In this document: in pieces, positions 34,624 to 43,488 of the stretch
Numbering within the stretch: position 1 is the first letter of the stretch
Layout of the letters: every line of letters begins with the position of its first letter
Assembly (NCBI RefSeq): GCF_025751575.1
Contig: NZ_JAOWLA010000015.1
Coordinates: 40,912 to 104,911, forward strand
Direction of reading: 5' to 3'
DNA from: Albidovulum sediminicola
GTDB taxonomy: Bacteria; Pseudomonadota; Alphaproteobacteria; Rhodobacterales; Rhodobacteraceae
DNA length: 64,000 nt
Position numbers and translations under genes: made by a program
Notes under the pieces: generated by a model
Databases searched by the model: none
What the model was told of the DNA's origin: nothing
What the model saw: the letters and a program-made list of their open reading frames with translations, nothing else

Positions 34624-34810
34624 ATCTCTGACGAAGCGCGCCCGAGGGGCGTCCCGCTGGCGGAAACGCAGCCCGGGCAAATTGACGCGCCCCCGGACGA
34701 CTCGATTGACTGAGACCAGCCGAATGCTAGCGTTTCCTTGCGCTGAAGTCGGCAGGCAGTCAGTCTAATCGGTGTGTGCCATGAGCAGTCCTTTTGCCAA
34801 GGAGGTCGCC

Positions 34811-36367
34811 ATGGACGCCCGCACGAGTAGCCGCAAACGCACCCGCACCGCCCGCACGAGAGATGCCGCGGATGCCTTTCGGCAGGAACCGCCCGAATTC
34901 TCGCGTGTCATGTTCGGTTTTCTCAGCGACTCCGAGGTCGAGTGGCTGAAGGAACGGGTTGAGGACGTTCTGGCCGATTACGGTGTCGCGATCCTTCATC
35001 CGGACGCCTACGAACGCCTTCTTGCTGCAGGCGCCAAGCCTGGGACGGACGCGAACCGCATCCGCATGCCGCGCGACCTGATCCAGGAGGCCATGGCGGC
35101 CACGCCGAAGTCGGTCCGGCTTGGCGGCAAGGAGGCAGGGTTCAACATCGACCTGCCGCGCGCCGACCGGGGTTTCATCATGCGGACCGGAACCGGCGCG
35201 CATGGCTATGTGAACCCGCGCGACGCCAGTTACCGCAAGATGGACCTTGCGGCGGTGTCCGAGATCGCCGCCGTCGCCAGCGCGCTGGACGAGGTCGGGT
35301 TCATCGCCCATCCCTTCGTCCACGGCGTACCCGAGGTGACATCCGACATTCACAGCTTTGGCCGCCTGATCGCGCGAACGCCGAAGCATATCTGGATGCA
35401 GCCCTACCAGTGGGAGAACGTGGACTACCTGATGCGCATCGCCGCCGTCGCGGCGGGTGGCGAGGCGCAACTGCGCGCCAATCCGATCACCAGCTGCATC
35501 ACCTGCTCCTTCACGCCGCTCGAATTCAAGTACATGGACACCCATGTCATCATGAAGGCGGGGGAATATGGCATTCCGCTCCACGCCTGCTCGCTGCCGT
35601 CCTCGGGTGGGACGGCGCCCTTGTCGGTGCCCTCCATGGCGATCATGGCGGCGGCCGAGATCGTCGGCATGACCGTGATGGCGCATATCCTCGCGCCGGG
35701 AACGCCGGTGATCGCGACGCCGCTGATGTTCACACTGGACATGCGCACGGGCAGCGCCCTGCAAAGCTGCGTCGAATCCCTGCAGGCGGCCAGCATGTCG
35801 ATCCAGCTGATGAAGCGGGGCTGGGGTGTCATCGCGCATACCTACGGATCGGGCTCCGACACGCCGGACGTGGATCACCAGTCGATGGCGGAACGCGCGC
35901 TGTTGACCCAGACGGTCGCACTTGCGGGGGCCGACATCCTGGGCGGCGTGGGGCAACTGGAATGCGCCACCGTCTTCAGCCCGGTGCAGGCGGTTCTGGA
36001 CAACGAGGTGGGCGCCATGATGCGGCGCTTCATTCGCAAGCCCAGCCTCGACAAGGAGGCGCTGAACTGGGACGAGCTGATGCAGATCCGGACCGGCGGC
36101 CATTTCCTTGACAGTGCCCACACGATCGCCACCTGCCGCGATCAGCTGTCGCCCAAGGTGTTCAAGCGGATCGGCCGCGACGACTATGAAAAGTCCGGGC
36201 GCCGGGCGGCCTTTGACGAGGCGCGCGAGTTTGCGCTGGCGGCGATCGCGGCCGCGCCCGAACAGGGCCTATTGAGCGCGGAGCAGGAGCGCGAGATCGC
36301 CGCCCTGACCGCGCGCGCCGACGAACATATCGTTGCCGCCTATTCGGGCGTCGTATCCGTGATCTGA
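34811..36367 (+). CDS. MttB-family (trimethylamine methyltransferase-like) protein
   Basis: A 518-residue TIM-barrel methyltransferase of the COG5598 superfamily. No in-frame TAG is present, so it is the non-pyrrolysine type, like glycine betaine methyltransferase MtgB, which transfers a methyl group from a quaternary amine to a corrinoid protein. AAGGAGG six bases before ATG 34811 fixes the start. No corrinoid-binding protein, reactivase or second methyltransferase lies nearby, so partners must be elsewhere. The substrate is unknown. The gene stands alone, 168 bases before a GntR-led operon with which it may share regulation. Confidence 0.88.
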   Translation: MDARTSSRKRTRTARTRDAADAFRQEPPEFSRVMFGFLSDSEVEWLKERVEDVLADYGVAILHPDAYERLLAAGAKPGTDANRIRMPRDLIQEAMAATPKSVRLGGKEAGFNIDLPRADRGFIMRTGTGAHGYVNPRDASYRKMDLAAVSEIAAVASALDEVGFIAHPFVHGVPEVTSDIHSFGRLIARTPKHIWMQPYQWENVDYLMRIAAVAAGGEAQLRANPITSCITCSFTPLEFKYMDTHVIMKAGEYGIPLHACSLPSSGGTAPLSVPSMAIMAAAEIVGMTVMAHILAPGTPVIATPLMFTLDMRTGSALQSCVESLQAASMSIQLMKRGWGVIAHTYGSGSDTPDVDHQSMAERALLTQTVALAGADILGGVGQLECATVFSPVQAVLDNEVGAMMRRFIRKPSLDKEALNWDELMQIRTGGHFLDSAHTIATCRDQLSPKVFKRIGRDDYEKSGRRAAFDEAREFALAAIAAAPEQGLLSAEQEREIAALTARADEHIVAAYSGVVSVI

Positions 36368-36457
36368 AACCGACGGTCCTTGCCGCCTTGCTCCGCCCGG
36401 GGCGGGCAGGGGCTAGACGGTGCGCGCCGCCTGGGGCGCCCCCTCCTGCCCAGGATC

Positions 36458-36478
36458 AGCGCCGATGGATTCGGCGCT
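36458..36478. terminator. Hairpin between the mttB-like gene and the GntR operon
   Basis: AGCGCCGA and TCGGCGCT pair perfectly around TGGAT, 90 bases past the mttB-like stop and 58 bases before the GntR gene. No T tract follows. It may end the upstream transcript or lie in the operon leader. Confidence 0.45.
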
Positions 36479-36535
36479 TGACGGATGTGTGGCTCCGGAT
36501 ACGGTACAGGTAGGAACAGGTTCGGTGAGTAACCC

Positions 36536-37246
36536 ATGTCCACCCGGATCGGAATCGCAAAGTCTGAACTCGTCGCCCAGACGCTGGAGCGCGAGATCCG
36601 CGAGGGTCGCGTCGCACACGGCGAGCTGCTTGAAAGCGAGGGCGCGCTCATGCGGCGCTTCGCGGTCAGCAGGAACACCGTGCGCAAGGGGCTGGAGCTT
36701 CTGACCCGGCAGGGTCTGATCACCACGCGCTCGGGCATCGGATCCTTCGTGACCTATGACGGGACGACCATCGACAGCAACCTGGGCTGGACCGTCGCGC
36801 TGTCGCACGGGGCAGGCGAGGTGATCACGCGCCTCCTGCGGCTTGGCCGTGGGGCGAGTGCGCGCGCGGACCGGATGCTCGGGTCGGTGCAGGAATACCT
36901 CTGCGTCGATCGCCTGCGGTTCTGCACCGGAGCGAAACAGGGGATTTCGCTGGAGCGCAGCCGCCTGCCCTGGCGCGATGCCTACGCCGAGGCGGCCGCG
37001 AACGGGCTGACGGATCAATCGCTGAACCGCACCCTGGCCGATCTGGGTCTCTTTGCCGCGAAGGGGCAAGAGACGGCGGGCGTCATCCCCGCGCTTTCCG
37101 AGGTCGACGCCACGATCATGGAGCGGCCCGCGGGCACCCCGATGCTGCGCCTCGAACGCGTCACGCGCTGCGCGGACGGCAGCGTCCTCGAATATGTCGA
37201 TAGCATCCTTGATCCCGCGCGCTTCGGCCTGAGGATCGACTTCTGA
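36536..37246 (+). CDS. GntR/HutC-family regulator (YegW-like) with UTRA domain
   Basis: A 236-residue regulator. The N-terminal winged helix (residues about 8-75) shows LMRRFAVSRNTVRKGLELLT and GLITTRSGIGSFVTY. The C-terminal UTRA effector domain ends RLERVTRCADGSVLEYVDSI. It is the first gene of a seven-gene operon, and its stop overlaps the next start (TGATG). The order GntR, ADP-ribosylglycohydrolase, PfkB kinase recalls E. coli yegW next to yegTUV, where yegW is the regulator. It presumably responds to the imported substrate or a phosphorylated product. Confidence 0.88.
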   Translation: MSTRIGIAKSELVAQTLEREIREGRVAHGELLESEGALMRRFAVSRNTVRKGLELLTRQGLITTRSGIGSFVTYDGTTIDSNLGWTVALSHGAGEVITRLLRLGRGASARADRMLGSVQEYLCVDRLRFCTGAKQGISLERSRLPWRDAYAEAAANGLTDQSLNRTLADLGLFAAKGQETAGVIPALSEVDATIMERPAGTPMLRLERVTRCADGSVLEYVDSILDPARFGLRIDF

Positions 37247-38262
37247 TGGGCGGGCGGGGGCAGCAGATGGATCGCGCGCTCGGGGCCCTGATGGGGGTTG
37301 CGCTGGGCGACGCGCTGGGGATGCCGTCGCAGACGCTGCCGCGCGCGCGTATCGAGGATGCCTATGGCCGGATCAGCGACCTTGTCGATCCCTTCCCCGA
37401 CCATCCCGTGTCGCACGGTCTGCGCGCGGGCATGGTCACGGACGACACCGAACAGACCTTGCTTCTTGCTGAGTTGATGATCCGCTCGCCGGAGCGCTTC
37501 GACGACCGTGCCTGGGCCGAGGCGCTGCTTGGCTGGGAACGGGATGTGCGCGCCCGAGGGCTGCGCGACCTTCTCGGCCCTTCGTCGAAGCGCGCGCTCG
37601 AGGCGCTCGCGGCCGGTGCGCCGGCCAGCGAGACGGGGCGCGCCGGAACGACCAACGGGGCGGCCATGCGCATCGCCCCGGTCGGCATCGCCACACCGCC
37701 GGAAGACCCCGCAGCCCTCGTCGCCCGTGTTGCGGAAGCCTGCCGGGTGACGCACAACACCCGCGAGGCGATCGCCGCCGCGGCCGCCGTTGCCATGACG
37801 ATCAGCCTTGGCGTGGAGGGGGCGACCTTCGAAGCGGCCTGCGGCCCCGCGATCGAAGCTGCGCGGATCGGATCCACCCTCGGCGCGCCGGTCGGCGAGG
37901 CGGATATCGCGGGCCTGATCCTTGCCGCGCTTCACATCGCCGAACGTGGATCGGAAGACGAACTGGTCGCGCGGATCGGCACCTCGGTCGCGAGCCGGGA
38001 GGCCGTTCCCGCCGCCTTCGGCGTGGTCGTCCTCGCCCAGGGCGATCCGTGGCGGGCGGGGGTGATCGCGGCGAATATCGGTGACGATACCGACACCATC
38101 GGCGCCATCGCCTGCGCCATGGCAGGCGCCTGTTCCGGTCTTGGGGCCTTCCCGGCTGACAAGGTCGAACAGGTTCGGGCGGCAAATGGGCTGGACCTTG
38201 CCCCGATCGCCGAGGGGCTTCTGGCGATCCGGGACCGGCGCCGATCCGGGGTGCGACCATGA
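37246..38262 (+). CDS. ADP-ribosylglycohydrolase family protein (YegU/DraG-like)
   Basis: A 338-residue all-helical hydrolase of the PF03747 family, which cleaves ADP-ribosyl or other N/O-ribosyl bonds using two Mg ions. The N-terminal GVALGDALGMPSQ, the metal-binding VTDDTEQ (Thr65, Asp66, Asp67) and the C-terminal GDDTDT (about 279-284, Asp281 and Asp283) are all intact, so it should be active. The reading begins at ATG 37246, overlapping the GntR stop; ATG 37267 (MDRALGAL) is an alternative with a G-rich ribosome site. Coupled to a PfkB kinase by ATGA. Its context with an importer suggests a catabolic nucleoside-like substrate rather than protein de-ADP-ribosylation. Confidence 0.9.
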   Translation: MGGRGQQMDRALGALMGVALGDALGMPSQTLPRARIEDAYGRISDLVDPFPDHPVSHGLRAGMVTDDTEQTLLLAELMIRSPERFDDRAWAEALLGWERDVRARGLRDLLGPSSKRALEALAAGAPASETGRAGTTNGAAMRIAPVGIATPPEDPAALVARVAEACRVTHNTREAIAAAAAVAMTISLGVEGATFEAACGPAIEAARIGSTLGAPVGEADIAGLILAALHIAERGSEDELVARIGTSVASREAVPAAFGVVVLAQGDPWRAGVIAANIGDDTDTIGAIACAMAGACSGLGAFPADKVEQVRAANGLDLAPIAEGLLAIRDRRRSGVRP

Positions 38263-39200
38263 CCGGCCGCCTCATCCAGCTGTCCGGTGTGATCGTGGAT
38301 CACATCTATTGGGTGGAGGCCGTTCCCCGCGCCGGCGAGGAAGCCATCGTGCGCCGGTCCGCGATCTGCGCGGGCGGGGGCTATAACGCGATGGTCGCGG
38401 CGCGGCGCGCCGAGATGGCGGTCGCCTACGCGGGGACGCTGGGCACCGGTCCCTTTGCCGAGATCGCGGCTGCGGCGCTTTTGGCCGAGGGGATCGAGAC
38501 GCTGCGCCCCAGGCTGGCCGGCGCCGACCAGGGCTGCTGCACCTGTCTCATCGACCGGGCGGGCGAGCGGACCTTCGTCGCCTCATCTGGGGCGGACGGG
38601 ATCGTGACCTCCGCCGACCTGGACGGCCTTGCGGTAGCAGCCGACGACTGGTGCCTATTGTCGGGATATGCGCTGGGCTACCGCGAAAGCCGCGCGGCGC
38701 TGACCGGCTGGCTTGAGGCGCGGGCCGGGCAGGTCCAGCTTGTCTTCGACCCCTCGCCGCTTGTGGCGGAAATCCCCGAAGGAAGCTGCGCCGCCGCGCT
38801 TGGTGCCGCAACCTGGCTCAGCGCCAACCGGGCGGAGGCCGCAGCCCTCGTCGGCCGGGCGGACCCCGGCGACGCGGCCGCCGCGCTCGCCCGGGGGCGG
38901 AGGGGCGGGGCCATCGTCCGCGACGGCGCGAACGGATGCTTCCTTGCGTGTGACGGTGGGGCGGCCCGGCATGTTCCCGGCCATCCGGTGCATGCCATCG
39001 ACACCAACGGTGCGGGCGATGCCCATATCGGTGCCTTCATCGCGGCGCTCGCCGACACGGGCGATGCCCTTTACGCGGCGCGGTTCGCCAATATCGCCGC
39101 CGCGCTTTCGACAACCCAAGAAGGGCCGTCAACGGCCCCGCAGAAGAACGACGTCCTGGCAGCGCTCGGCAAGGCCGAGGACCCTGCGCGGACGGCATGA
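38259..39200 (+). CDS. PfkB-family carbohydrate kinase (YegV-like)
   Basis: A 313-residue ribokinase-superfamily kinase. The N-terminal AICAGGGYNAMVAARR is the substrate-binding GG region, and DTNGAGDAHIGAF (Asp254 as catalytic base) is PfkB signature 2. NAGDA-like variants favour sugar or nucleoside substrates. It overlaps the glycohydrolase by four bases and would logically phosphorylate the sugar that the hydrolase releases. The transporter genes follow after 24 bases. Confidence 0.9.
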   Translation: MTGRLIQLSGVIVDHIYWVEAVPRAGEEAIVRRSAICAGGGYNAMVAARRAEMAVAYAGTLGTGPFAEIAAAALLAEGIETLRPRLAGADQGCCTCLIDRAGERTFVASSGADGIVTSADLDGLAVAADDWCLLSGYALGYRESRAALTGWLEARAGQVQLVFDPSPLVAEIPEGSCAAALGAATWLSANRAEAAALVGRADPGDAAAALARGRRGGAIVRDGANGCFLACDGGAARHVPGHPVHAIDTNGAGDAHIGAFIAALADTGDALYAARFANIAAALSTTQEGPSTAPQKNDVLAALGKAEDPARTA

Positions 39201-39224
39201 CACTACCGCCAAAAGGAGGAACAC

Positions 39225-40256
39225 ATGAACAGACTGCTTCTGACGTCCGCGCTGGTTCTCGCCGCCAACGGCGCGCTGGCCGACGAAATCCGCGTCCTGA
39301 ACTGGCAGGGCTACGGCACGGATCTCGACTGGGCGATCGCCGCCTACACGGAAAAGACCGGCAACACGGTCGTCCACGAATACTTCACCTCCGAACAGGA
39401 GATGCTGACCAAGCTGCGCACCAATCCGGGCGCCTATGACGTGGTCTTGATCAACTCCGCCTATACGGCGCAGGCCAAGGACGAAGGGCTGATCGATCCG
39501 ATCGACAGCTCGATGATCCAGAACTTCGCCGATCTCGATCCGTCCCTGACCGGGAATGAGGACCTGAACCCCGGCGGTGCGCTTCATGGCGTGCCCTGGA
39601 CCTGGGGCCTGACCTCCATCGCGGTCAACACCAACGACTTTGCCGAGATGCCGACATCGCTTTCGGTGCTCTGGGACCCGCAGTGGAAGGGGCGCGTTTC
39701 GATCCGCGACGACGGACTTGAGGCGGTGCAGTTCGCCGCCATGGCGCTGGGTCAGAATATCAACCAGATCACCGACCTCGACGCGATCAAGGCGAAGCTG
39801 ACCGAGCTTCTGCCGCAGATGACGACTTTCTGGAGTTCCGAGAACGACTGGAACCAGTTCATGTCGGCGGGCGATTTTGCGGTGGCCACCTACTGGTCGG
39901 GCTCGGCCTCACGCTCGCAGGCGAAGGGGCTGCCGATTGCCTTCGTCGTCCCCGAAGAGGGCGCCATCGGCTGGCTTGACGGTCTGTCGATCCCCTCAAC
40001 CTCCACCCACAAGGAGGCCGCGGCGGCCTTCATCGACTGGATGGTGGACCCGGCATTCTACGTCAAATGGGACGCCGAGGGGGCGCCGGTATCCTCGAAC
40101 ACCAAGGCGCTGGCGGAACTGCCGGAGACGAGCTTCAACCGGAAGCTTGTCGAGGATCCGGCGACGGTCGCGCGGGTGCAGTTCATGAAGCCGGTCTCCG
40201 ACGCGGATCGGGAGACCTACCTGAAGCTCTGGCAGGATCTGAAGGCGGCCCAGTAA
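39225..40256 (+). CDS. PotD-like periplasmic substrate-binding protein
   Basis: A 343-residue extracytoplasmic binding protein. The signal peptide is MNRLLLTSALVLAANGALA; the mature protein begins DEIRVLNWQGYGTD, the typical start of spermidine/putrescine-type binding proteins. Other family blocks are NPGAYDVVLINSAYT, GVPWTWGLTSIAVNT and GWLDGLSIPSTSTHKEAAAA. AAAGGAGG seven bases before the ATG is strong. Ligands in this family range from polyamines to quaternary amines and other small cations, so polyamine is not a safe call. Confidence 0.9.
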   Translation: MNRLLLTSALVLAANGALADEIRVLNWQGYGTDLDWAIAAYTEKTGNTVVHEYFTSEQEMLTKLRTNPGAYDVVLINSAYTAQAKDEGLIDPIDSSMIQNFADLDPSLTGNEDLNPGGALHGVPWTWGLTSIAVNTNDFAEMPTSLSVLWDPQWKGRVSIRDDGLEAVQFAAMALGQNINQITDLDAIKAKLTELLPQMTTFWSSENDWNQFMSAGDFAVATYWSGSASRSQAKGLPIAFVVPEEGAIGWLDGLSIPSTSTHKEAAAAFIDWMVDPAFYVKWDAEGAPVSSNTKALAELPETSFNRKLVEDPATVARVQFMKPVSDADRETYLKLWQDLKAAQ

Positions 40257-40278
40257 GGCTGGGGGAAGGAGGGGGCAG

Positions 40279-41142
40279 ATGGCGATGACCCTTGCAGGGC
40301 GGGACCGCCGCAGGGCCCTGGCGCTTCTGTCCCCTGCCTATCTCTGGCTGACGGTGGCGGTCTTTCTGCCGCTGTCGGCCATGGCCTTCTTCAGCTTCCT
40401 GTCCGACGTGCCGTTCGGCGGGAAGGATTGGCACGCGACGCTCGACAACTACCGCGCCTTCTTCCAGACCGCGACCTACGCGACGCTGCTGTGGAAGTCG
40501 CTGAAGCTCGGCCTGATTGTCACCGTGGTGTCGGTGGTTGTCGGCTTTCCCTGCGCCTATGTGCTTGCCAAGATCGTGAAGGGCCGATCGCGCGAGGCGC
40601 TGTTTCTGTTGGTGATCCTGCCGTTCTGGTCGAACTCGCTGGTGCGCATCTTCTCCTGGGCCATCGTGCTGCGCGGGAACGGCGTTCTGGACCGGGCGGT
40701 GAATGCGATCCTGCCCTGGGACGTGAAGCTGAACCTGATGTTCAGCCCGACGGCCATCGTGATCGGGCTTGTCCATTCCTACCTGCCTTACGTGATCCTG
40801 ACCTCCTACCTCGCGCTTCAGGCCATCGACGACAGCCTGATCGAGGCGGCGCGGTCGCTGGGCGCCAGGCGCCGGACAATTCTCTGGCGGCTGATCCTGC
40901 CGCTGGCGGCGCCCGGCATCCTCGCCGGTGCGGTTTTGATCTTCGTGCCGGTCGTGGGCTCTTTCATGGAGCCCCGGCTCCTCGGCGGCAGGGTCGGCAC
41001 CTATTACGGCACGGTGATCGAGGATCAGTTCGTCGCCGTCTTCAACTGGCCGCTGGGCGCGGCGCTGTCGTTCATCCTTCTGGCCGTCGTTCTGGCCATC
41101 CTTGCCGCGGCAAGCCCGATCCTGCGGAGGGCACGGACATGA
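40279..41142 (+). CDS. PotB-like ABC permease
   Basis: A 287-residue inner-membrane permease with six hydrophobic segments. The EAA loop is LIEAARSLGARRRTILWRLI followed by LPLAAPGI. It is the first of two different permease subunits expected in a spermidine/putrescine-class importer. It follows the binding protein after 22 bases and overlaps the second permease by four. Confidence 0.93.
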   Translation: MAMTLAGRDRRRALALLSPAYLWLTVAVFLPLSAMAFFSFLSDVPFGGKDWHATLDNYRAFFQTATYATLLWKSLKLGLIVTVVSVVVGFPCAYVLAKIVKGRSREALFLLVILPFWSNSLVRIFSWAIVLRGNGVLDRAVNAILPWDVKLNLMFSPTAIVIGLVHSYLPYVILTSYLALQAIDDSLIEAARSLGARRRTILWRLILPLAAPGILAGAVLIFVPVVGSFMEPRLLGGRVGTYYGTVIEDQFVAVFNWPLGAALSFILLAVVLAILAAASPILRRART

Positions 41143-41924
41143 GCAACGGCTTTCTGGCCCATCTTGGCCGCGCCTATGTCGGGCTGATCCTGTTCTTCCT
41201 TTACGCCCCCATCCTCGTCATGGCGGCGATGTCCCTCAACGCGTCGGAGTTCTACCAACTGCCGTTCAGGGGATCGACGGAGTGGTACGCGCGGCTTTGG
41301 CACAACGGTGAAATCCTGTCGGCCGCTTGGCGCTCGGTCTGGATCGCGGTCATCGTGACCCTCATCGCGACCACGCTCGGGACGGCAGCGTCTGTCGCGC
41401 TCTTCCGCCACGACTTCCGGGGCAAGCGCGTGCTGCAGGTCCTGCTGTTCCCGCCCATCGCGATCCCCTGGCTCATCACCGGCACGGCCATGCTGATCTT
41501 TTTCTTCGGCATCGGCCTCGGGCGCGGGACGCCTGCCGTCATCATCGGCCATGTCGCACTGGCGCTTCCCTATGTGATCGTGGTCGTGTCGGCGCGCCTG
41601 GCGACCTTCGACCGCACGCTGGAAGAGGCCGCGCGGTCGCTTGGCGCGACCCCCTGGCAGATCACCCGCGCCGTCACGGTGCCTTGGATCCTGCCCGGCA
41701 TCATTGCCGGGGGGCTTTTCGCCTTTGCCGTCAGCTTCGACCAGTTCGTCGTCTCCTACTTCCTGTCCGAACCCGGGGACACGACGCTGCCGGTTTTGAT
41801 CTACACCTCGATCCGCAAGGGCTTCACGCCCGAGATCAACGCGATCTCGACCATCATCATCGCCCTGTCGATGGGCATCATGCTGCTTGCGGCGCGGTAT
41901 TCCAATTTCGGGGGGGAACGCTGA
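41139..41924 (+). CDS. PotC-like ABC permease
   Basis: A 261-residue permease with six hydrophobic segments and the EAA loop LEEAARSLGATPWQITRAVT followed by VPWILPGI. The start ATG 41139 overlaps the preceding stop (ATGA) and the end overlaps the ATPase start (TGATG), so all transporter subunits are coupled. Confidence 0.93.
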   Translation: MSNGFLAHLGRAYVGLILFFLYAPILVMAAMSLNASEFYQLPFRGSTEWYARLWHNGEILSAAWRSVWIAVIVTLIATTLGTAASVALFRHDFRGKRVLQVLLFPPIAIPWLITGTAMLIFFFGIGLGRGTPAVIIGHVALALPYVIVVVSARLATFDRTLEEAARSLGATPWQITRAVTVPWILPGIIAGGLFAFAVSFDQFVVSYFLSEPGDTTLPVLIYTSIRKGFTPEINAISTIIIALSMGIMLLAARYSNFGGER

Positions 41925-42952
41925 TGGCCGAGGTCAGGGTTGAAAATCTGGTCAAGACCTATGGCGCGGCACGGGCGCTCGACGAGGTGACGCTCGACTT
42001 TCCCGATGGCGGCTTCTTCGGGCTTCTTGGTCCCTCCGGCAGCGGCAAGACGACGCTTCTGCGCGCGATTGCGGGATTTGTCCTGCCTGAAACGGGCCGC
42101 GTCCTGATCGCCGACGAACCGGTGGAGAATGTCCCGGTCGAAAAGCGCGGGATCGGCATGGTCTTTCAGAACTACGCGCTCTTCCCGAACATGACCGTCG
42201 CAGAGAATATCGCCTTCGGGCTCGATGTCCGCAAGGTCGGCGCGGCCGAGAAGAAGCGCCGCGTGACGGAGGCGCTGGATCTGGTTCAGCTTGGCGCCTT
42301 TGGCGCGCGCAAACCGCATCAGCTTTCCGGCGGTCAGCGCCAGCGCGTCGCGATGGCCCGCGCCATCGTCACCCGGCCGCGCGTGCTCTTGCTCGACGAA
42401 CCGCTCTCGGCGCTCGACAAGGCGCTGCGGGTCGACATGCAGATCGAGCTCAAACGCATCCAGCGGGAGATTGGCATCACCACGATCTTCGTCACCCACG
42501 ACCAGGAAGAGGCGCTGACGCTGTCGGACCGGATCGGCATCCTGAAGGATGGCCGCCTCATCCGGCACGGTCCGCCGCGCGAGGTCTACGACGATCCCCG
42601 CGACAGCTTCACGGCGACCTTCCTGGGCGACGCGCGGATCTTCTCCGGCACGCGCGAGGCGGATGGGCTGCGCCTGGCGGACGGGACGCTGGTTCCGGGC
42701 GCCCAGGGGGCGACGATCGCCGTGCGGCCCGAAAACTTCCAGCTCTCGGCATCCGAGCCCAACGCGCCCTGCCGCCTGCGCGCGCACCTCGTCCAGAAGA
42801 TATTCGGCGGCGCGCTCGGCACATGCCTGCTCGACTGGCAGGGCGAGGTCATCAAGGTCGTCGGCCGCGACGCCGACTTCCGTGCCCTGCCCGAAAGCGG
42901 CCCGGTCTGGGTCAGCTGGCAGCCGGAGCACAGCGTGACGATCAGCCCCTGA
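41924..42952 (+). CDS. PotA-like ABC importer ATPase
   Basis: A 342-residue ATPase. Walker A is GPSGSGKTTL (residues about 36-45), signature LSGGQRQRVAMARA, Walker B VLLLDEPLSALD and H-loop VTHDQEEALT. A C-terminal TOBE domain (IAVRPENFQLS onward) is present. It ends the operon that began with the GntR gene. Confidence 0.94.
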   Translation: MAEVRVENLVKTYGAARALDEVTLDFPDGGFFGLLGPSGSGKTTLLRAIAGFVLPETGRVLIADEPVENVPVEKRGIGMVFQNYALFPNMTVAENIAFGLDVRKVGAAEKKRRVTEALDLVQLGAFGARKPHQLSGGQRQRVAMARAIVTRPRVLLLDEPLSALDKALRVDMQIELKRIQREIGITTIFVTHDQEEALTLSDRIGILKDGRLIRHGPPREVYDDPRDSFTATFLGDARIFSGTREADGLRLADGTLVPGAQGATIAVRPENFQLSASEPNAPCRLRAHLVQKIFGGALGTCLLDWQGEVIKVVGRDADFRALPESGPVWVSWQPEHSVTISP

Positions 42953-42991
42953 CGACCGGCGCGCGATCACAAGCCCCCGCCAACTTTCTGC

Positions 42992-43016
42992 GAACCCTTT
43001 TGGATCTGGCGCATCA
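42992..43016 (+). promoter_or_regulatory. Possible ECF-sigma promoter of the cupredoxin operon
   Basis: GAACCC at 42992 and GCATCA at 43011 lie about 55 bases before the first gene of an operon that encodes its own ECF sigma factor. Many ECF promoters have a -35 containing GAAC and a variable -10, and autoregulation is common. The spacing is slightly short, so this is only a candidate. Confidence 0.3.
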
Positions 43017-43068
43017 AAGAGACAGGTGCCCGCTGATGCGGGACCGCCAGAGCATGAAAGGAAACCAG

Positions 43069-43488
43069 ATGAAAACGGCTTTGCTTGTGGCTGCGGCCAC
43101 CTTCCTCCTTCCCGTCGGCAGCGCGTTGGCGCATGAGGAGGGGGCGCTGCAGATGTCGCCTCCGGGCGCGCCCTATATTCAGGTCAGCGACGCCTTGCCG
43201 CTGCCCGAGTTCATTCCCGGCCTCGGCACGCTTTTCGTCGATCCCGCGACGCTTCCGGCGGGGCCGTTCCTGGCCTATGATCATGACGGGCGGCTTTCGG
43301 CGACGATTTACATGACGCCGCTCGACGATCTGCGCAACGGCACCTCCTACGACGGCTTGGGGGTGGGCAGCCACACGGTTTCCTCGGTCGATATCTATTA
43401 CAACGCCGGGCATCCGGGCGTGGAGGCGCCGCACGCGCATGTCGTCCTGTTCCATGACGAGGACGCCAAATCGAGGCTTGCCGAGTGA
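43069..43488 (+). CDS. Exported TTHB210-like (DUF5602-type) protein
   Basis: A 139-residue secreted protein. The signal peptide is MKTALLVAAATFLLPVGSALA. The mature part has GPFLAYDHDGRLSATIYMTP, then VDIYYNAGHPGVEAPHAHVV with several histidines near the C-terminus. This resembles the TTHB210-like domain, whose Thermus founder is controlled by an ECF sigma factor. The identification is from memory of the pattern and is tentative. The stop overlaps the next start (ATGA), and an ECF sigma gene follows in the same operon, in line with that link. Confidence 0.65.
   Translation: MKTALLVAAATFLLPVGSALAHEEGALQMSPPGAPYIQVSDALPLPEFIPGLGTLFVDPATLPAGPFLAYDHDGRLSATIYMTPLDDLRNGTSYDGLGVGSHTVSSVDIYYNAGHPGVEAPHAHVVLFHDEDAKSRLAE

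Follow-up and report, generated by a model that had tools for sequence, protein, structure and literature searches.

Nicotinate degradation genes adjoin relatives of a seven-gene ADP-ribosylglycohydrolase operon of Albidovulum sediminicola, which may take up and cleave pyridine ribosides

A stretch of 64,000 nucleotides from Albidovulum sediminicola (contig NZ_JAOWLA010000015.1; hereafter the window) carries seven genes coding for a HutC-type regulator, a hydrolase of the ADP-ribosylglycohydrolase (ARH) fold, a PfkB-family sugar kinase and a four-subunit ABC importer of the PotDBCA type. In some relatives of this cluster the genes of nicotinate degradation (nic) are associated with it both physically and genomically, which is new here. 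We tentatively propose, as the reading we favour, that the seven genes import and cleave a pyridine (nicotinate or nicotinamide) riboside, with the released ribose predicted to pass to the kinase. An earlier note, made from the window sequence alone, had suggested catabolic scavenging of a nucleoside-like riboside. Its catabolic part stands: a ribose-releasing, small-molecule role of the cluster is likely, because importers of different types (ABC, NCS1, MFS) are swapped around the same core. The unspecified nucleoside gives way to a narrower candidate, as the flanking genes of relatives point to a pyridine riboside.

The nic genes first surfaced as recurring families in the flanks of related loci. 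In Paracoccus tibetensis (L019) nicE-nicD-nicX-nicF run up to the start of the regulator gene, and in three loci of Aurantimonadaceae (L052, L055, L059) the same four genes are followed by a gene for an SSS-type symporter (recognised by eye) and then by the core of the cluster. This places nicE-D-X-F directly 5' of the cluster in four genomes of two lineages, which belong to different ARH clades (98% and 99% support in the Shimodaira-Hasegawa-like approximate likelihood ratio test, SH-aLRT). The nic names were assigned from solved relatives of the L019 proteins: a 2,5-dihydroxypyridine 5,6-dioxygenase (1.4e-91), a deformylase (1e-121), a maleate cis-trans isomerase (1.6e-139) and, for the fourth protein, a hydrolase of the isochorismatase family (5.4e-95), near the N-carbamoylsarcosine amidohydrolases.

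NicX was found at E<=1e-100 in 12 of 48 genomes with the cluster, a 13th having only a distant match; this count leaves out L022 and L033, and for L007 and L040, which end before the transporter, the importer type was assumed from the tree. At the same threshold NicX is present in 1/149 control genomes of the order, in 2/385 of the class and in three of 29 additional genomes of all types that carry an ARH (a fourth at 1e-85). Within Rhodobacterales alone, to which 38 of the 48 genomes were counted by record title and tree, the figures are 6/38 against 1/149 (Fisher p 3e-4, without phylogenetic correction). NicX occurs also without the ARH cluster, because two of the positive controls are not among the ARH matches of their samples (G143 in the order sample, G414 in the phylum sample); the third, G831, was not searched for ARH. 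It is this enrichment, together with the nic genes next door in relatives, that suggests a pyridine riboside.

The distance between the ARH and NicX genes is 1.5 kb in G535, 3.6 kb in G563, G564 and G566, 17 kb in G546 (where the intervening genes are unrelated, by eye), 21 kb in G567 and 83 kb in G560. In G567 the interval includes genes for a 2Fe-2S subunit, a molybdenum hydroxylase, an FAD monooxygenase and a NadC-like protein (all recognised by eye). In Jiella (L143, 11263-12096 and 17421-18008) a NadC/ModD-like gene and a MarR-like regulator gene (by eye) are located between nicotinate genes and potA. The MarR-like family (by eye) is also found in the flanks of L019, L026, L052, L055, L059 and L068.

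Recurrence of the unit was examined in 80 genome loci chosen by ARH similarity alone, the best 80 of 546 confirmed. PfkB is present in 76 of them (of the four loci without it, two lie at contig ends) and the regulator in 68. All four Pot genes accompany the core in 46 loci and some of them, at contig ends, in four; an NCS1 permease takes their place in 23, and seven have neither. The order HutC-ARH-PfkB-PotDBCA repeats in Rhodobacterales, Hyphomicrobiales and Halomonas (the latter with split frames), while the NCS1 version is found in Pseudomonas, Streptomyces, Bifidobacterium, Paraburkholderia and others. Joint occurrence in other genomes, which the earlier note had named as a check, is thereby confirmed, and since the seven genes do co-occur elsewhere, the outcome that would have spoken against its proposal, homologues never found together, is excluded. 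The cluster is a widespread unit and not a chance neighbourhood. Its regulator-hydrolase-kinase core is constant while the importer varies between the ABC type, the NCS1 permease of the nucleobase family (PF02133) and, in the E. coli type, the MFS nucleoside:H+ symporter (PF03825).

Distribution of the orthologues is patchy: any ARH match at 1e-3 was obtained in 13/149 genomes of the order and a strong one (1e-100) in five, the window's own genome included, and 26/398 genomes of the phylum sample have a match at 1e-20. Nine matches fall in plasmid records, six of which were retrieved and four of these carry gene tables. Those of H1, H2 and H4 list ARH, PfkB and ABC genes, that of H7 lists ARH, a cytosine permease and a kinase, and no nic genes are among the genes listed in these four incomplete tables. 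In Halomonas olivaria (L046, 8001-12975) the frames matching ARH, PfkB, PotC and PotA are split, and two TAG codons fall within the ARH match; this is a decayed copy or the result of sequencing errors.

The hydrolase gene (37246..38262, + strand) codes for a member of PF03747, as judged by its score (207.9 bits, curated cut-off 26.2) and by its AlphaFold model (pLDDT, the predicted local distance difference test, 96.3; 41 rows), which has a plain ARH fold by structure matches. Both metal motifs reported in the earlier note, VTDDTEQ and GDDTDT, are present, and the residues T65 D66 D67 T68 and D281 D283 T284 are invariant (42 rows). That note missed, however, that the metal-site Glu of other ARHs is Gln in the window protein (residue 29, codon 37330..37332, + strand). 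Alignments place Glu at this position in the solved DraG, MJ1187, Thermus protein and Tri1. Judging by the position after the GD-x-x-G motif, in what we take to be the ARH3 sequence, and by the aligned DraG residue, Gln29 probably corresponds to Glu41 of ARH3. The window ARH has Gln29 instead of a Glu-flap glutamate of the ARH3 Glu41 type, which is a feature of a subclass only.

Residue 29 distinguishes two groups of sequences: it is Gln in 97 of 98 window-type rows (the remaining one has a gap) and Glu in 11/11 YegU-type rows. Sorted by importer, Gln is found in 61 of 62 ABC-linked rows (one gap), 29 of 29 NCS1-linked and seven of eight unassigned ones, and Glu in all 11 MFS-linked rows. These counts omit the window's duplicates (L001, L084), distant paralogues (L002, L090-L096) and matches below 100 bits or shorter than 250 aa; L089 (Glu, 37% identical) is also outside the 98 rows. 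Among the 120 nearest database proteins 116 have Gln29, and the other four did not fit the search pattern. After TDDT, window-type rows continue with EQ or DQ, YegU-type rows with SM (one AM). In a tree of 97 ARHs, built by a quick method with SH-aLRT support, without bootstrap and with long branches flagged by the program, all nine YegU/MFS-linked rows form one branch (100% SH-aLRT) apart from the ABC- and NCS1-linked rows.

The likeness to E. coli yegWUV seen in the earlier note is therefore only partial. E. coli yegTUV with yegW/ggaR (L083) does share the UTRA-type regulator, the ARH, the PfkB kinase and the presence of one importer with the window, but that importer is of the MFS nucleoside type, the regulator gene is divergent, and the ARH belongs to the separate branch with a different Glu-flap residue. 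As the subfamilies differ, the YegU/ADP-glucose function was not carried over to the window ARH. The window's genome has another PF03747 match (L002, G000:C23:2412-2948, model positions 86-280), which lies inside a 999-residue open frame and is perhaps an ARH domain within a larger protein.

A pyridinium leaving group is known for this fold. According to one ARH3 study (PMC8319183), a flap above the second metal carries Glu41, and the wild-type enzyme breaks the pyridinium-ribose bond of alpha-NAD+ rapidly, which supports a pyridine riboside as the substrate. Its authors argue that alpha-NAD+, being an N-glycoside, does not need the initial Glu41-assisted attack, and that Glu41 could touch the ring amide. 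ARH3 shares with the window ARH the fold and the metal-ligand motifs and, with the reaction proposed here, nicotinamide leaving from ribose; it differs by Glu41, by its ADP-ribosyl substrates and by having no importer or kinase partner, whereas the window ARH has Gln29 and both partners.

A more elaborate version, which we consider doubtful, is a dedicated vitamin-B3 riboside pathway. The Pot-type ABC importer would be specific for nicotinate or nicotinamide riboside, the catalytic Glu of the ARH would have been replaced by Gln as an adaptation to a leaving group that is a pyridinium or a carboxylated pyridine, the kinase would receive the ribose and the nic pathway the base, and ABC, NCS1 and MFS importers would be interchangeable. 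Within that pathway the riboside might be the alpha anomer derived from NAD, otherwise unsalvageable.

A number of observations weigh against a pyridine riboside. Only four of the 13 NicX-positive genomes have NicX within 5 kb of the ARH gene; in five (G530, G533, G534, G544, G547) it is on a different contig and in G559 (Halomonas) it is megabases away. NicX is absent at 1e-100 from 36/48 cluster genomes and at 1e-60 from 25/29 further ARH-bearing genomes of all types, and neither the genome of the window nor the two other genomes of the same genus in the sample have a close NicX. No nic genes were found in the examined flanks of NCS1-type clusters, except for a weak NicF-like match in L064. 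Nor are the samples phylogenetically independent: five of the six Rhodobacterales NicX cases are in one 11-row clade. Other pyridines, e.g., nicotine, are likewise degraded through the lower nic pathway, so the nic linkage does not fix the base. The PotD-type residues retained in the binding protein (see below) would equally be expected of a polyamine binder. The amidase-like gene found in many flanks was considered as a classical nicotinamidase and rejected, having no metal-site histidines when compared with what we take to be the nicotinamidase motif, and only weak best solved matches. Natural nicotinamide riboside is mainly the beta anomer. ARH1 and ARH3, by contrast, select alpha linkages, as stated in PMC7050489. 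Finally, PMC8319183 describes ARH3 E41A as severely reduced in activity and as the variant that served to crystallise uncleaved alpha-NAD+; Glu41 thus matters for ARH3 on this substrate too, and Gln29 might mean a lower or different activity.

The operon could instead scavenge an ordinary or modified purine or pyrimidine nucleoside by the same steps, the nic linkage being incidental. We regard this as rather unlikely, though the swapped-in transporters, a nucleobase-family NCS1 permease and a nucleoside:H+ symporter, are what would be expected of it, and the 36 cluster genomes without close NicX also fit. No purine or pyrimidine catabolic family was recognised by eye among the 30 listed recurring flank families, which do include nic and PF00857 families, and the enrichment of NicX in cluster genomes speaks for the pyridine riboside.

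The PfkB/ribokinase-superfamily kinase (38259..39200, + strand; PF00294, 117.1 bits) scores 100.7 bits with the NCBIfam model D_ribokin_bact, below its cut-off of 299.65. This leaves room for another order of events, in which O5 of the imported riboside would first be phosphorylated by the kinase, and the ARH-fold enzyme, by cleaving the 5'-phosphate, would release ribose 5-phosphate directly. PsuK/PsuG, which phosphorylate and then cleave pseudouridine, provide a model, and solved ARHs bind ADP-ribose, a 5'-phosphorylated ribose, according to the titles of the fold matches. We find the kinase-first order improbable; it differs from cleavage of an unphosphorylated pyridine riboside in the sequence of steps alone.

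The importer genes follow the kinase gene on the + strand: a PotD-like periplasmic binding protein (39225..40256; PotD model 150.8 bits, cut-off 582), a PotB-like permease (40279..41142; PF00528; PotB model 196.3 bits, cut-off 348), a PotC-like permease (41139..41924; PF00528; PotC model 207.1 bits, cut-off 326) and a PotA-like ATP-binding subunit (41924..42952; PF00005, 126.1 bits; potA model 340.1 bits, cut-off 355.6; PotA equivalog model of NCBIfam 333 bits, cut-off 482). All four subunit types and the binding-protein fold are those of the PotABCD/PotFGHI polyamine importers, but every subunit is under its equivalog cut-off. None of the seven genes reaches a curated NCBIfam cut-off (for the permeases and PotA, among the best 25 families each), and names such as PotD and ribokinase therefore denote kinship, not function. 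The structure model of the PotD-like protein (pLDDT 91.4, 25 rows) has PotD and PotF as best PDB matches, with the opine-binding MotA/AgtB lower down; Defluviimonas denitrificans has a counterpart of this protein with 93% identity. Its W27, Y30, D163, E166, W224, W250 and D252 are invariant columns (25 rows) and, in an alignment with 1pot, presumably equal W34, Y37, D168, E171, W229, W255 and D257 of PotD, whose numbering and roles we assume. In the same presumed numbering Q28 and G29 stand where PotD has T35 and E36. The cation site would thus be kept and one end of the polyamine site altered, as fits a pyridinium compound, and a polyamine may fit too. A further PotD-like importer set, with an aldehyde-dehydrogenase-like gene (by eye) behind it, is found at L152 (5563-11135) in the same genome.

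An isochorismatase-fold amidase-like gene (PF00857) is present in the flanks of 17/80 loci, 12 strong cases (one of them the query itself) and five weak ones, often directly after potA and in addition to the four loci with nicF. With a background of 60 matches in 21 related genomes totalling about 73 Mb, our own arithmetic gives about one such gene expected in 80 flanks of 16 kb, the background being other taxa and another search method. Eight of the 12 strong cases are in one clade. The Cys motif GVATDCCV is found in most rows, and there is no metal site. A large uncharacterised gene adjoins the isochorismatase-fold gene in L016, L018, L025, L027 and L049 (near 14.2-16.9 kb) and in L048 (4631-7402), the L049 copy having no Pfam match; an MGH1-like glycoside hydrolase type occurs instead of it or besides it in L009, L014, L017, L024 and L029.

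These neighbours raise the alternative that the substrate is another N-glycoside or an amide-bearing sugar conjugate, such as a plant nicotinate glucoside or an opine-like sugar-amine, on which the amidase-like and glycoside-hydrolase-like products would act. The MotA/AgtB matches of the PotD-like model are in line with this, as are the two kinds of large hydrolase-like genes, one MGH1-like, which are found in the flanks of 11/80 loci; both kinds are absent from the examined flanks of the other 69, and every characterised ARH acts, to our knowledge, on ribose. We give this alternative little credence.

It is very improbable that the ARH regulates protein ADP-ribosylation or ADP-glucose/glycogen metabolism beside a polyamine importer: the PotD-type residues are retained and E. 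coli YegW is reported (PMC10819704) to respond to ADP-glucose and affect glycogen, but the ARH is linked to an ABC importer in 46/80, an NCS1 permease in 23/80 and a sugar kinase in 76/80 loci, its subfamily is not that of YegU, and it scores below the NCBIfam cut-offs for DraG (81.2 against 337.05 bits) and the ADP-ribosylarginine hydrolase Tri1 (77.2 against 490 bits).

Other systems resemble the window cluster in part. The NCS1 version has the same core with a single permease in place of the four-subunit importer. In the ribose utilisation system of Bacteroides thetaiotaomicron an ARH-type gene is found among nucleoside hydrolase and ribokinase genes for ribose scavenging; its transporters and regulator differ from those of the window cluster, and we know of no nic linkage there. 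The nic/naa pathway of nicotinate degradation, which adjoins the cluster in some genomes, starts from free nicotinate. In the open-access literature, mostly as listings and the beginnings of abstracts, we found no paper on riboside entry into this pathway through an ARH and no description of this ARH operon or of an ARH-riboside link.

The seven genes are co-directional open frames arranged head to tail at 36536-42952 on the + strand, as the earlier note had them; Pfam and NCBIfam agree with the names it gave. Four of the six junctions overlap (regulator/ARH, ARH/PfkB, PotB/PotC, PotC/PotA); at the remaining two, the genes are separated by 24 and 22 bases. The ARH may alternatively start at the second ATG, 37267, since the protein database lists the window's own ARH with 331 aa (P0002). 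Further upstream, a gene for an MttB-superfamily methyltransferase-like protein (34772-36367, + strand; PF06253, 146.7 bits; 241 bits with the trimethylamine equivalog model, cut-off 525) ends 168 bases 5' of the regulator start. It was considered as an eighth operon gene and excluded, because tblastn gave no match covering half of the query in any of the 80 related loci.

The first gene (36536..37246, + strand) codes for a GntR-family regulator with a UTRA domain (PF00392, 52.8 bits; PF07702, 35.2 bits). A putative operator, GGTACAGGTAGGAACAGGTTC, is located at 36503..36523 (+ strand), 12 bases before the regulator start, and consists of a tandem ACAGGT with an 11-base period. The 9-mer GTACAGGTA (either strand) occurs in 12 and the 8-mer TACAGGTA in 17 of 30 regulator-upstream regions. 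The 17-base core of the putative operator has one exact match in the window's own genome, at this site. A shared regulon was considered and rejected: at <=3 mismatches the core has nine matches in this genome and the reversed control 15. The sole other close match (one mismatch) is read as chance, because it lies inside a PotD-like coding sequence and the totals are not above the control. As the exact core is unique and other matches are at control level, the HutC-type protein is likely a single-target repressor. A TTGACG box (36478-36483, + strand), read by eye, is found 19 bases upstream of the putative operator. A sigma-70 scan of 36300-43200 gave no promoter-like site under its rule, and six terminator-like sites were found there against 3.6 expected.

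If the cluster does process pyridine ribosides, the HutC-type protein would repress its own operon at the tandem ACAGGT until substrate or product binds the UTRA domain. The PotD-like protein would capture a cationic or zwitterionic pyridinium riboside, PotBCA would carry it inward, and the binuclear metal centre of the ARH fold would cleave the pyridinium-ribose bond. The PfkB kinase would convert ribose to ribose 5-phosphate, and the pyridine base would enter the nic pathway where present, or otherwise NAD salvage or excretion.

The nic linkage provides a concrete and cheaply testable substrate hypothesis for yegTUV-like clusters, which are found from enterobacteria to Streptomyces. If it holds true, the ARH fold, known for undoing protein ADP-ribosylation, would have been turned to feeding, a member of this fold would join the turnover of NAD-derived ribosides, there would be a microbial sink for vitamin-B3 ribosides, and Glu-type (E. 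coli) and Gln-type ARHs would be set apart, which would keep function from being passed between them by name.

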